From the NCBI GenBank assembly GCA_031213475.1, contig JARUPZ010000007.1:8427586-8491585 (forward strand): 64,000 nucleotides of DNA. The letters are read 5' to 3'. Each line of letters starts with the position of its first letter. The stretch's first letter is position 1. This document shows positions 13,029 through 41,300 of the stretch, one piece after another. The DNA is from Nereocystis luetkeana (taxonomy: Eukaryota; Sar; Phaeophyceae; Laminariales; Laminariaceae). The position numbers and the translations under genes were made by a program. A model generated the notes under the pieces. The model was given only the letters and a program-made list of their open reading frames with translations, was not told the DNA's origin and did no database searches.

Positions 13029-13150
13029 TAACGGGGAACCATAGTTAATAGAACCGGTATAGATAAAACCTACCAGGTACCTGGTACCAGGTATATATTT
13101 AACCATTTTTACTAACAATATTTGGTCCTATTAACTATGGTCCCCCGTAA
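13029..13150. mobile_element. TA-flanked MITE (TTACGGGGGACC family), enlarged by TACCWGGTA insertions
   Basis: Ends ACGGGGAACCATAGTTAATA ... CCTATTAACTATGGTCCCCC with GTAA. Where other copies read AAAACCTATATATTTAACC this copy has CCAGGTACCTGGTACCAGGTA inserted directly after the TA, that is, three TA-bounded CCWGG units in a row. Confidence 0.85.
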
Positions 13151-13162
13151 TAGTATGCGTAC

Positions 13163-35300: not shown

Positions 35301-38300
35301 CAGCGTCGAGGGACTCATTTTTTCTAGTTGTGGCCACTTCCGGAGACGGTAACGGGTATACTACCTAACTCCCTCTTGGGTACCTGGATATACTCACTAC
35401 GTGATATGACCATCCCCCTTGTGCGGACTTAAGGTTCTCCACCCCGCACAAACATAGCCGCTGCGGTAACTCGACCACTAGCCATGGTGACCGCAAAAAC
35501 AATTCAACGGTACCCGAGCTCACGCTGGAATTGGCAGCCTCTCGTCTCGCAGGTGTGTCGTTGCCGTTCGTACGCTGATAACCTTTCACACACCGAAATA
35601 CGATTATATCATCCACAGATAGATCATCTAGATCATGCTGCATCCTAGCCTGCCGTTATGAGATCTTGTGCAGGATCTGTGAAGTATAGATCCAACCCAC
35701 GGGAAACCTGCCCTACTGTAGAGCATGCAGATTTAACTGCTCCCACCTGGCGGCAACATGAACTGTTGAGACCATACAGATCGGGGATATACATCTGCCT
35801 GGAAAGATGTAGGTTGTCACTGTGGAAAATCGACGATCTGTCCGAGGCGTTCAAACCTTTGGGCGTGGCCGCTTTTACGTGACCGCCTTGACGTTTGACG
35901 TGACGCCTCTGACGTGAACGCCTTGGCGTTTGACGTGACGCCTCTGACGTGACCGCTTTGACTTTCGACGTGACGGCTCTGACGTGACCGCTTTGACGTC
36001 GCGCGTGGCGTCGCGCATCCATCGGACGGTTTGCTTTGTTGGGTTAGCGGAAGGAGGAGAGAAGTGAGAGAGGGGGAGGGGGGGGGGGGGGGGGGGGGGA
36101 TCGGTCGTTCGCGACCCCGAGGTTCCGACGTGTGTGAAGCGCAGTCGTCCACACCTCGGTGAGGTCATCGATTTCCAGCTTCATGATCTACAGTAGATAT
36201 GTCAAGGAAAATCTATCGTTGCGGATTATTGTATGATTCTGTGTGATCTAGCTCATGTTGCCGGGTGGGACCCGTATAGTCTGCATGATCTAGCGCGTGT
36301 TTCCTGGGGTGCTGGATCTGCCCTAGAAGGCAGATCCTGCAAAACCTCTCACAACTCACAACAGCAGCAAGTGAGGAACTACAGTAGATTGTCTACAGTA
36401 ACATCGTGCTCTGTCTGTGCGTGCTGTGCAGACCATCCATCCGCCCATGTCCTATCCTATCCAATCCGATTGTATCCAATCCTGTTCTATCCACACCGTG
36501 TTATAACTTTGGTGGCTATTTTCGTTTTGTTTTCGTCTGCACCCCCCCCCCCCCCCCCCCCCACCTCCGCCCGTCTCGAAAGGGATGCGTGCTCAATGGT
36601 CGAATGGCTCTAAGGCAAGCAACCACTGAGTACGCCCTCCGTCCTGGCAGTACGCCCTCCGTCCTGGCATCGTAGGGATGCGAGGGTCTATGGTCATACG
36701 ACTACGGTCATGCATGATATCGAGTACATCTCTCCTATCGAGTATACCCCCCCCCCCCCCCCCCTACTTTATATAGGTTGGGCTGGCGTCGGTTGGCAAC
36801 GACACTGTAAAACATGCCGCTCACCACGTGAGCTAGACTTCCAGGGTACCGCTTTTTTTTCTTGGCGGTCGGTCACAGCTGATTGTCGAGTTAGATCGTT
36901 TGTGCGAGGTGAACAGCCTTTACTCCACACAAGTGGGAATGATCGTATCACGTAGTGATTATGGTAAGGCACCCACGAGGCAGTTGCATAGTACGCCCAT
37001 TTCTGTCTCTGGCAATGCCTACACCGGAAATAGAATAACTCATTGAAGCTGTCATCCATATGCAAGTCCGCCTCACAAGCTGTTCTTCGTAGGATGCAGC
37101 ACACCCTTCATGCGACTCGCCCAACAAACTCCTCACAGCGTTTCGCGCTTGGTGCAAGCAATGTCTGCCTGGTCGGTGAAAACCCGACATGCTCCGTCCC
37201 GGCATTGTAGGGATGGGATGGCCTATGGTCATACGACTACGGCCATGCATGAGATCGAGTACATCTCTCCTATCAAGTACACCCTCCCCCCCCCCCCCCT
37301 GTTATTCACCAAAACCAGAAATTTAATCTGTTCATTGACGCTTTCATCCATACCAGGTATGCAAGAACATCCGCCTCAAAGCGGTTCTCAGTAGGATGCA
37401 GCTCACCCTTCATGCGACTCGCCCAACACCTCACGGCGCTTCTCGCTCGGTGCGAGCGAACAACGTCTACCTGGTCGGTGAAAACTCGACGTGCTCCGTC
37501 CGGGCATTGTAGCGATACAAGGGTCTATGGTCGTACGACTACGGCCATGCATAAGATCGAGTACATCTCTCCTATCGAGTACACCCCCCCTCCCCCCCAC
37601 GCTCCGTCTGGAAAGGGATGCGTGGTCAACGGTCAAATGACTAAGGCAAGCAACAAACGAGTTCGCCCCCCCCCCCCCCTCCCGGCTCCTTCCGCTCGTC
37701 CGTCGTCCAACAACTACAATAACCCGTGTAACATTCATAAGATAGCACCCCCCCCTTGGCATGAATTTTCTCAGTAGAGCTTACCACTTGATCGAGATCT
37801 GGTCTGATTGGCTCAGGGTCAGGCTTAGGGTTGCTCTGATTGGCTCAGGGTCATGGTTAGGGTTGCTCTAATTGGCTTAAGAATCAGGCCTAGGGTCGCT
37901 CTGATTGGCTTAGAGTTAAGGCAAGGGCCAGGGTCAGTACTCTTCGTCTCGTACACAGTGTGTGTCAAACCATTTTCTCGAATAAGTGTTAAAGCAACCC
38001 TCAAATTTCGAGCCGACCATTTTCCCAAACAAGGGAGGGGGTTACGCACAACGAAAAATGCTGGCTCCTGGAAAGACCTCTCGGTGAGATGTTATTTCCG
38101 TAGGCGCATCGCTCGGCGTTAGCCCTCACTCTCCTCTCCCATTTTTGTCGATAAAATCAGCTTGAAAGAGCGTCGGAGGGGCTGTGTTATCTTGCGTGAT
38201 ATACGGGTAACAGCGATAACACTATTACGGGGGACCATAGTAAATAGTACCAGGTACCAAATTTTGTCAGTAAAAATGGGTGTATGTAGGTTTTCGTGTG

Positions 38301-41300
38301 TACCATAGGTTCTATTTACTATGGTCTCCCGTAATGCCACGGACAGCAACAAGCTAACAACAACACTAGCAGCAACAACACCTTCTGTCACTAGACTTTA
38401 CCTCCGCCGCTGATACCATCCTTCTTTACCATTGTCGACTTCGTCTCAGAAACCATCCTACTCCGGGTTTCGACAATCCACGTTACATATACAAGTGCAC
38501 GAAGTACGACGTATGTGCCAAGCGGTACGTTTTCACCCCGCGCACACCGACCGACCAACCAACCCTCCCCCCCCAACCCCGCGAACCTCCCGCCTCTTTT
38601 GTGGCAGGCAGCAGAGCCGGTAATTGTCTCGTTCGTGTCTTGGATGGCGGAGGACAAATGTCAGCACTTGGTCTTGTGGCTGGCCTTGATTCCTATCCTA
38701 GCAGGCGTCGCCATCACCTTCCGAGAGGTGGGGGGGTCGGAGATGGGAGGGGAGGGGGGGGGGGGGGATACGGGGGGTGGGGGGGGGGGGCGAGGGGGTG
38801 GGCGGGCATACTCATTTGTCGCCTGCCTTGGTCATTGACCATTGACCACGTATCCCTTGCCAGACGGAGCGGGGGGGGCGGGGACGGGGACGGGGGGGTG
38901 TATGTACTCGATAGGAGAGATGCACTCGATCCCCAAGCATGGCCGTAGTCGTATGACCATGGACCCTTGGTAGTTCGCACTCTCGATTAACAGTTCATTC
39001 TGGCTCTCCCTTCTTTACTCTGTTGTTCACCGTCTTCATCTCGTTGCACACACAGCACGCACACGCGTGGGGCACGGAACACAGCAATACAGAAGTGGGA
39101 TAGCGTTTACAGAAAAAGAAAAGGATGCGTCGAAAAAGGGGCTGGAACTCTCGACCAAACTCGGCAGCCCACGAGAATCGCACTACAGCAGCAGCAGCGT
39201 TGTACTTGTGTCAGCATGCATGTATCACACAACAGCAGAGACCCCCAGCTGTACAGATCGCAGGGTCCGATAAAGAAGCAGGAGGAGGAAGCCACAGCAA
39301 TATAGCGCGGACTAACTACCGCACACACGTGATGTTGCTTCCTGCTCTGCTGCCGGGCGGCAGGTGGCAGGCGTGTAGCCAGCTAGTGGTATCACGCACC
39401 CTGTACTTCTCATGTGTTGTTCGTTGTCCGTGGTGTGTCTGGGTTACGTACATAATACAAGAAACAAGTTGAAAAAAATAGACATGATCTCTGCGAGGAT
39501 CGAACTCGCGCCGTCAAGCCCCCAAGCGGGCATCGTTACCATGTGACCATATATATACCAGGTATATATGATATATCTAACCCTATATATATTTATTACG
39601 AAATATCCGTATTGTTATTTGTAGCGGCGCGCACGACACACCAGACACACATCTACAGCACAGCGGCAAAGAGAAAGGTGGTACGTAGTGACGATTGACG
39701 GATCGCATCCTCCGATACAGCAACCAGCCACAGCAGTACACCTCACGCGCGTCGTGTTTCGGGCCGCTGCTTGTGCTGTCCGGCGGGGTCATAACGTTGT
39801 TTTGTGTTCTCTGCATTGTATCTGCTGTCCACAGTAGGTGTCTGGTGTGTGCTCGGGGCAAGAAACACCAAACGTCGGAAATAGAAGGACCGTTACATTT
39901 CCGTCCTGACTTAGCGTGGGTCTGTCATACACACCAGCAGCAAAGATGGGTAGATGGTGGATGACGGGCCACAGACTCTGATGAAGGCAACTAGCCCCAG
40001 CAGTGCAGCGGAGATGGGCGTGTCTGTCACACTCACGGTGTTACCTGCTGGTGCTTACGGGCGGCAGCGCTATAGCGTTGCGCTCTCTGCCTGGTGTCTG
40101 TTGTCTACCTAGAACATGTCTATAGGTTGTGTGCTCGTGACAGCGCAAATAGCTGACGAAATTTTACCGGTACATACGCACAAAATAAGGCCTCTCGTAC
40201 TGAAACCAGGGAAATGGCCTAATCCACTCCCGCCGGAAAAAAAAAACGTTGAGGGCTTGCCACGCGCTCCAGAATGCGCAGATCGCGCCCGGACTTCGAT
40301 CAATGTGTCCGGCCGGGCTTCCCGTGTCGACCGCTCGGCGTTTCGCCAAAAAAAGTGCTCGTACAAGAGAGACATATTCGAAAAAGTAAGAATTTTCACG
40401 TAAACATAGCTGTTAATAGGATAATATTGTGTTGCCGCCGCGTGGGAGCCGTGGAACCTTGTCGAGCTGTTAAAGGGGCAGGTTTCCCATGGGTTGGATG
40501 TATACCATACATATCCTGGACAACACGTCATAACGGCAGGCTAGGATGTACTACTAGGGAACACAGCAATCAGGACTGAATATCCATAGTAAAAATACTA
40601 GATTATACAGGTTTTTGTGTGTACGATGGGTCCTGTTAACAATGGCCACCCGTAGTAGATGTTCTCGTGGGTCGTGATCTGTCCGCCGTGTGGAATCTTA
40701 TCTATAGAGACAGGGGGTCCTTTTTTCCCCCCGCTGTATACTGCTGAATACCTGGTATATAGAAGTATATACTTTCTCTATAGGAGATAACTACCACTGT
40801 ATTACAATATACCAGGGGATTTGATAACAGCAGTTCTCCGTCGGGTTTTTTTTCAGTGGTGTTGATAGTAGTGGTAGTGGTGGTGATGGCAATGGTTGGA
40901 ATAAATGTTGGTGTTCTAGCATCAGAGCAAAGTATCGCCATAATCTGGTCCGTGGCAACAGGCCAGGCTCCGATATTTTTCTGGAGGGGAAGGTTGTGTA
41001 TCCCCCATTGATTTATCGGATAGTTTTTTTTGCGTTTTTTGCGTTTTTTGCGTTTGCGGCCATGCACGATCGGCTGGGGCGGCCATAACAGCTCTCTCTC
41101 TCTGCCGACCATAGGACGCCGCATCGCTCCCCATCCCCCCCCTCCCCCCCACCCCCAACCTCAATCCCAACCCCCAACCCCAACTTAACCGAAACCCCAA
41201 CCCCATCCCCACCGCCGCCTCCACCCCCGGCAGGGTGTGACGGGCTCGATGACGGTGAATGCCATCGCGACCTGCGGGGCGTTGATGTGCGGCTCCCGGA

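Follow-up and report, generated by a model that had tools for sequence, protein, structure and literature searches.

Distribution of TACCWGGTA in the window and the genome

The window analysed here, a 64,000-nucleotide stretch of the Nereocystis luetkeana genome (GenBank assembly GCA_031213475.1, contig JARUPZ010000007.1, positions 8,427,586 to 8,491,585 of the forward strand), carries 41 exact copies of the palindrome TACCWGGTA (W, A or T) between positions 833 and 63312. Several lie inside older repeats, including miniature inverted-repeat transposable elements (MITEs), tails of long interspersed nuclear elements (LINEs) and a local duplication (Table 1). This palindrome, called a scar below, was most probably left behind on excision of a cut-and-paste transposon that is specific for TA and cuts with a stagger of 5 nt. 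The first-pass annotation had put its number at about 40, far above chance; the count is borne out by an expectation of 0.43 (mean over 100 dinucleotide shuffles, largest shuffle count 2), and the copies span a wider interval than it had described. The window has few related palindromes: CACCWGGTG occurs once, AACCWGGTT not at all and TACCCGGTA five times.

Across the 465-Mb assembly, TACCWGGTA occurs 182,395 times versus 1,744 for the reversed control pattern, and the tandem 16-mer TACCWGGTACCWGGTA occurs 15,917 times versus 2 for its control. A 276-kb sample, composed of the window, four loci that entered for holding tandem copies (L001-L004) and twenty 10-kb pieces from ten contigs (one with 2,500 masked bases), contains 124 copies at 109 sites, of which 96 are single, 11 double and 2 triple. 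In a set of about 302 kb, the exact form is found 135 times versus 2.8 expected (about 48-fold), whereas all one-mismatch forms together reach 146 versus 61 expected (2.4-fold), so that TACCWGGTA is not a broad motif. The scars would have decayed by roughly 7% per base on average, a figure that repair variants inflate. Those within MITEs and LINEs are either younger than the carrier copies or were copied along with them. Nine stretches with the tandem 16-mer in viral contigs are taken as chance. In a record filed as a Flavimaricola metagenome-assembled genome (JALZWD010000061.1, L038), 8 kb hold the same alga-type repeats with three TACCWGGTA and three TATTAATA, a probable case, judging by these repeats, of host contamination in a bacterial genome record. 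The LINE reverse transcriptase has 605 relatives, and among the 120 listed three carry an organism name: two belong to Ectocarpus, and the best one to a bacterial metagenome-assembled genome that is probably contaminated.

Insertion at TA and target preference

Comparison of sister repeat copies reveals a clean conversion of TA into TA-CCWGG-TA, a gain of 7 bp. Clean TA empty sites are also present opposite the scars at 37351 and 18108 of the window and at L016:206, L022:4746, L011:3810, L005:5268, L035:3811 and L035:5352. Sequence spanning the site occurs elsewhere in the 276-kb sample for 33 of the 109 sites, although some of these are AT-rich chance matches only. All gains of the form TA to TA-X-TA were tallied in an all-against-all alignment of the 302-kb set: X is CCAGG at eight distinct places, TTAA at five, CAG at two and CCAGGG at two, while CGAC (10) belongs to one repeat subfamily and probably reflects shared descent; single bases account for five gains of C and five of A, and the others are single cases. 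A repeat resembling a short interspersed nuclear element (window 37234, 37536 and 31565) includes a subfamily in which TA has become TACGACTA (+6), perhaps through a single old event that spread with the repeat.

The flanks outside both TAs are symmetric, with T or C at +1, A at +2, T at +3, T at +6 and W at +7, and the left and right half-sites agree in preference. The W at +7 is the strongest position (ratios to background: A 1.74, T 1.49, C 0.24, G 0.37), and the whole profile is distinct from that of TATTAATA. Under the target matrix, scar TAs score about three times the average TA (5.16 versus 1.71), an advantage that comes mostly from their favourable original flanks. Together, the independent empty sites and the symmetric target preference uphold the earlier claim of insertion at TA inside older repeats and, as read from the scars themselves, conform to the insertion at TA with TA duplication of Tc1/mariner elements.

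These observations also bear on whether the palindrome could be a functional site, for protein binding, replication or recombination, that arose by mutation and was kept by selection or spread by slippage. Its palindromic form and high copy number would suit such a site. In several kinds of repeat, however, it is seen as 7 bp inserted together with a duplication of TA, the added bases bear no relation to the sequence around them, and the gap between exact and one-mismatch forms does not fit a broad motif. TACCWGGTA is not ancestral in these repeats, and slippage from empty sites would not create it. A functional site is therefore almost certainly not the explanation.

Spectrum of products at one TA of the MITE

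For one TA within the MITE that carries several of the scars described earlier (ATATATA followed by GGTTTTTGTG), a genome-wide search that allowed up to 24 free bases at the junction yielded 109 matches versus none for the control; the 100 matches listed provide the spectrum. Exact single scars make up 55 of the 100, divided between TACCTGGTA (30, T centre) and TACCAGGTA (25, A centre), and a further 23 carry a length change in the scar or at its edge. The length-changed forms comprise CCAG (4), CCTG (1), CCGG (2), CCATGG (2), CCCTGG (2, plus one with a changed flank), CCCCTGG (1), CCAGGG (1), CCAGGGG (1), CCTAGG (1) and CCG (1), and in six of the 100 CCAGG, CCAGGG or CCGG is fused directly to TTTTT. 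Of the rest, 7 are arrays (in two of which a unit differs in length), 7 are exact scars whose flank has changed, 7 have substitutions within the scar and one is of another kind. Length changes are thus more frequent than substitutions, as expected of end joining but not usually of decay; substitutions go unseen, however, in the first seven bases (ATATACC) and in the right half, which the search pattern holds constant. Four CCAGG-TTTTT products may share descent. As proof of microhomology joining, TATATACCAGGTTTTTGTG is weakened by a similar-looking case at L015:141 that amounts to one substitution.

Excision would explain this spectrum as follows. An element would insert at TA in the symmetric AT-rich target described above and duplicate the TA. 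Its transposase would later nick 5 nt inside each end, so that each flank keeps a single-stranded CCAGG (or CCTGG) tail, and the two tails would pair at four of five positions around a central A.A or T.T mismatch. Repair keeping A would give TACCAGGTA and repair keeping T would give TACCTGGTA. Less precise joining could produce the observed CCAG, CCTG, CCGG, CCATGG, CCCTGG, CCAGGG and microhomology-like junctions. The resulting scar holds two TAs, each with one favourable original flank, and might be hit again and grow by 7 bp, which would account for the observed arrays. The parent element would by now be rare or lost. The earlier proposal that both W forms stem from 5-base overhangs mismatched at their centre fits the spectrum at this one site. 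A footprint consisting of the protruding ends between two TAs, as in Tc1/mariner elements, is likewise compatible with it, the element ends being deduced from the scars. More tentatively, at somewhat less than an even chance, the scars would record a ghost transposon whose 5-nt stagger is unusual and which made at least 10^5 fixed jumps in one lineage before nearly vanishing, its re-hit scars growing as 7-bp ladders.

A second scar with a visible parent

A second scar, TATTAATA, has 17 copies in the window (0.72 expected) and 93,112 genome-wide (control 10,689). It corresponds to a gain of 6 bp at TA at five places in the all-against-all alignment, and its flanks prefer G (.50), T (.51) and A (.55) at +1 to +3. 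The MITE that carries several of the scars described earlier has the structure TA-TTACGGGGG...CCCCCGTAA-TA and possesses inverted ends and TA on both sides; 29 of 34 ends follow TA, and the next bases are G (.72), T (.62) and A (.55). Under the TATTAATA-flank model these ends score 1.37, and under the TACCWGGTA model -2.56; none of 5,000 random TA sets and none of 5,000 TACCWGGTA sets scored as high as the former value. This common target preference leads us to read TATTAATA as the footprint of the TTACGGGGG MITE, in which 2 nt of each MITE end would have stayed between duplicated TAs. The pair serves as an internal control, with a visible parent for TATTAATA and none for TACCWGGTA in the same genome. 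A piggyBac origin of TATTAATA was rejected, as piggyBac duplicates TTAA and excises seamlessly, whereas TATTAATA arises from TA with a gain of 6.

Both the second scar and the one-site spectrum bear on a different proposal, in which the 7-bp unit is itself mobile and an enzyme adds CCWGG plus TA at TA sites with no longer donor element. The unit is very uniform and abundant, arrays extend by 7-bp steps and no donor was found in the searches made, all of which would agree with such an activity. A fixed template, however, should not yield a repair-like spectrum of A or T centres, one-base losses and gains, doubled centres and CCAGG-TTTTT fusions, and for the sister scar TATTAATA an actual element family exists whose target preference agrees with it. 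We know of no enzyme that adds such a unit, and consider this proposal very unlikely.

Evidence weighed against an excision origin

Several observations, made on the scars and in the search for their parent, weigh against the excision reading. Among five before/after pairs described previously, all of which read as written, an intact TA is present in the sisters of only two (16202 and 13071); the sisters of the other three have GA, TG/CA or AA in place of TA, so that TA was either made by one substitution before insertion or lost in the sister. A broader search of the MITE site used for the spectrum (TTAAATATATACCWGG) gave 1,124 matches versus none for the control, and the centre is T in 73 and A in 27 of the 100 listed rather than 1:1. 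Some of these scars were thus probably copied along as the MITE spread and do not count as separate events; the skew could reflect either a scar inherited within one MITE subfamily or mismatch repair that favours one strand. One such site holds both scar types in a row, TACCTGGTATTAATA (C2:5347409). With regard to the arrays, the scar-side half-site scores only about average (0.06), double junctions constitute 8.7% of copies (15,917/182,395) versus 4.0% predicted by the target matrix, and the centre is the same in 40 of 59 tandem doubles listed and mixed in 19 (counted by eye; p 0.009). The excess of double junctions and the 40:19 ratio suggest that part of the scar arrays may owe their growth to duplication and not to re-insertion.

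The same side of the balance holds the search for the parent, which is predicted to start with TA-CCAGG or TA-CCTGG and to have inverted repeats. Among inverted TACCWGG...CCWGGTA pairs separated by up to 6 kb in the 276-kb sample, the best are pairs of scars matching at 18, 14 and 13 of 20 bases. No clear common end emerged in 100 of 2,059 genome-wide contexts listed in which TATATACCWGG is followed by a base other than T (control 487), nor in 100 of 1,212 in which it is followed by T and then a base other than A (control 51). The 100 occupied MITE sites listed of the 1,124 contain no recognisable element interior.

Further searches gave a consistent picture. Among the best 30 inverted pairs (276 kb; floor 10/20), those in which one end is not a scar match at no more than 11 of 20 bases, and the 45 listed clusters of TA-anchored repeated ends in the 302-kb set comprise the TTACGGGGG MITE, other repeats and CCWGG clusters that are scars without conserved continuation. 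The longer CCWGG-bounded element suggested at first was thus found neither in 276-302 kb nor in 300 listed genome-wide contexts. The listed TATATACCWGG contexts are scars that have been altered, sequence that looks random, and local duplicates. Apart from TACCAGGGTA and the MITE, the continuations seen three times are TGTAYGCATGCATA and GTGCACAGCAGTA, the latter as three copies within 160 kb on C2. These C2 copies (TATATACCTGGTGCACAGCAGTARAGCGTGC at 17779255, 17831535 and 17938081) are probably a local duplication but might be an element end. In the TATATA context, about 28,000 scar half-sites are estimated (from 23/298 in loci read) versus 3,271 other continuations, 200 of which were seen without a clear common end; by these counts, intact ends probably amount to well under 1% of scars.

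So many scars with so few elements would also follow from abortive integration, in which transposon ends attack TA and are cut off at once, so that 5 nt of each end stay and the element is never resident. The ends and the target would be the same, and sequence alone does not separate this route from excision here; it requires a second cleavage reaction, to our knowledge without precedent, and appears highly improbable.

Transposase genes and TA-flanked families

TA-specific transposons are present in the genome, as 28 matches to DDE_1 (PF03184) and two TA-flanked families show. A search for a Tc1/mariner transposase had been suggested, and of the 12 of the 28 matches that were inspected, located in 11 regions (L034-L037 and L039-L045), none is tied to CCWGG ends. 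Inverted ends with TA occur in L040, L042 and L043, all starting with CAG, and define the two families, whose ends are CAGTACCGGCC and CAGTGGGGGGCCC. One comprises L040:1937-4124 and L042:1709-3686, the other L043:1752-4363 (TAs included in the coordinates). Neither was assigned as the source of TACCWGGTA. The L042 element sits in the TA of a TACCAGGTA scar (1702-1710). A copy of TGTATGCATGCATA 1.5 kb from a DDE_1 match was rejected as a candidate, the element there having its own ends, TA-CAGTGGGGGGCCC. PF13358 gave no matches, its control being detected in 3 of 14 only, and PF01359 gave none with its control silent. Region L041 (C34:4443600-4450200) contains an inverted duplication of 1,888 bp at 99.5% identity with two facing DDE_1 matches.

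Relation to known systems and significance

Yeast mitochondrial GC clusters are another class of short mobile palindrome. Passages on Sleeping Beauty and Frog Prince, both Tc1/mariner elements, describe a TA target, a duplicated TA and the footprint TAC(A/T)GTA (PMC7827188, PMC3878927), with protruding ends of 2 or 3 nt in the superfamily (PMC3878927). As in these accounts, TACCWGGTA shows TA duplication, a footprint that would consist of the protruding ends and a central A or T either way. It differs from Sleeping Beauty in a stagger of 5 nt, as deduced from CCWGG, versus 3, in its roughly 180,000 genomic copies and in having no known element. The scar would thus work like a Tc1/mariner footprint; membership is not claimed, because the deduced stagger exceeds the 2-3 nt of that group and no transposase is tied to the scar.

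Stowaway MITEs of Triticeae, as portrayed in part of one report, left historical TA footprints with several products per site and an insertion beside an old footprint (PMC1925063); unlike TACCWGGTA, that case concerns one intron across taxa, retains 1-4 bp of the end and has the elements present. For Ectocarpus, also a brown alga, sections of a genome study list 17 Mariner-Tc1 families with almost 12,000 copies, mostly MITEs (PMC12477816); the singular word 'footprint' does not occur in its main text, the plural lying outside that search. Short A/T palindromes that are optional between relatives are described in portions of a Fusarium study (PMC7218506), in which the term 'TA target' does not occur; unlike TACCWGGTA, they are mitochondrial and built of A and T runs. 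Among the records listed in literature searches, no title or abstract start reported such a genome-wide scar, and for TACCAGGTA no title on such scars appeared among the 20 listed of 119 matches.

Excision footprints are usually met singly, and here two kinds occur in one genome in about 182,000 and 93,000 copies, the latter including roughly 11,000 expected by control. Such numbers allow target choice, end-joining accuracy and transposon jump history to be measured from an assembly, and let the ends of an unseen element be predicted. They also suggest that part of the short-indel load of a genome stems from transposon departures, not arrivals. Were the ghost transposon real, the scars would constitute a countable, datable record of excision and end joining for an element known solely by its absences.

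Features of the window

Table 1. Scars, arrays and MITEs in the window (positions numbered from its first base)
Feature	Position	Strand	Remark
Scar TACCAGGTA	833..841	.	exact match
Scar TACCAGGTA	2241..2249	.	exact match
Scar TACCTGGTA within repeat	5826..5834	.	sister copies without scar and without TA
Array, 2 scars	5979..5994	.	exact match
Scar	8320..8328	.	exact match
Scar	10010..10018	.	exact match
Scar	11956..11964	.	exact match
Scar	12989..12997	.	exact match
Array, 3 scars (A, T, A) in MITE	13071..13093	.	sister copies: TA
Scar, LINE tail	13530..13538	.	sister at 6388: TG
Scar in MITE	16202..16210	.	sister copies: clean TA
Scar, LINE tail	17978..17986	.	same site as 13530, reversed
Scar	18108..18116	.	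TA in 4/5 sister matches listed
Scar	18582..18590	.	exact match
Scar	21976..21984	.	exact match
Scar	22676..22684	.	exact match
Array, 3 scars	25451..25473	.	exact match
Scar	25574..25582	.	exact match
Scar, 25-27 kb duplication	27119..27127	.	sister (about 27819): AA
Scar	29874..29882	.	exact match
Array, 2 scars	30668..30683	.	exact match
Scar	32003..32011	.	exact match
Scar in repeat	37351..37359	.	sister matches listed: TA 8/11, CA or TG 3/11
Scar in MITE	38248..38256	.	most sister copies listed: GA
Scar	39556..39564	.	exact match
Scar	40749..40757	.	exact match
Scar	45655..45663	.	exact match
Array, 2 scars	45698..45713	.	exact match
Scar	46532..46540	.	exact match
Scar	50353..50361	.	exact match
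Scar	51602..51610	.	exact match
Scar	54243..54251	.	exact match
Scar	59921..59929	.	exact match
Scar	63312..63320	.	exact match
TATTAATA, first copy	9685..9692	.	exact match
TATTAATA, starts	10025, 12858, 13007, 18285, 20512, 21873, 24616, 25198	.	exact match
TATTAATA, starts	29986, 30850, 42864, 49372, 51720, 53826, 55639, 63085	.	exact match
MITE, TTAC ends	16182..16296	.	each end preceded by TA; carries scar 16202
MITE, TTAC-end family	13029..13150	.	carries array 13071
MITE, TTAC-end family	25796..25900	.	
MITE, TTAC-end family	38225..38334	.	carries scar 38248
MITE, TTAC-end family	53840..53944	.	
MITE, TTAC-end family	62562..62666	.	

Apart from these features, the window contains a compact palindromic repeat with ends like TTAACCCTTTTAGAACCGCAGTCCCG at 8386-8483, 11333-11429, 11687-11775, 45101-45300 and 63509-63600, which we take to resemble a piggyBac-type MITE, and a perfect array of about 120 TGCT units at 46719-47197.

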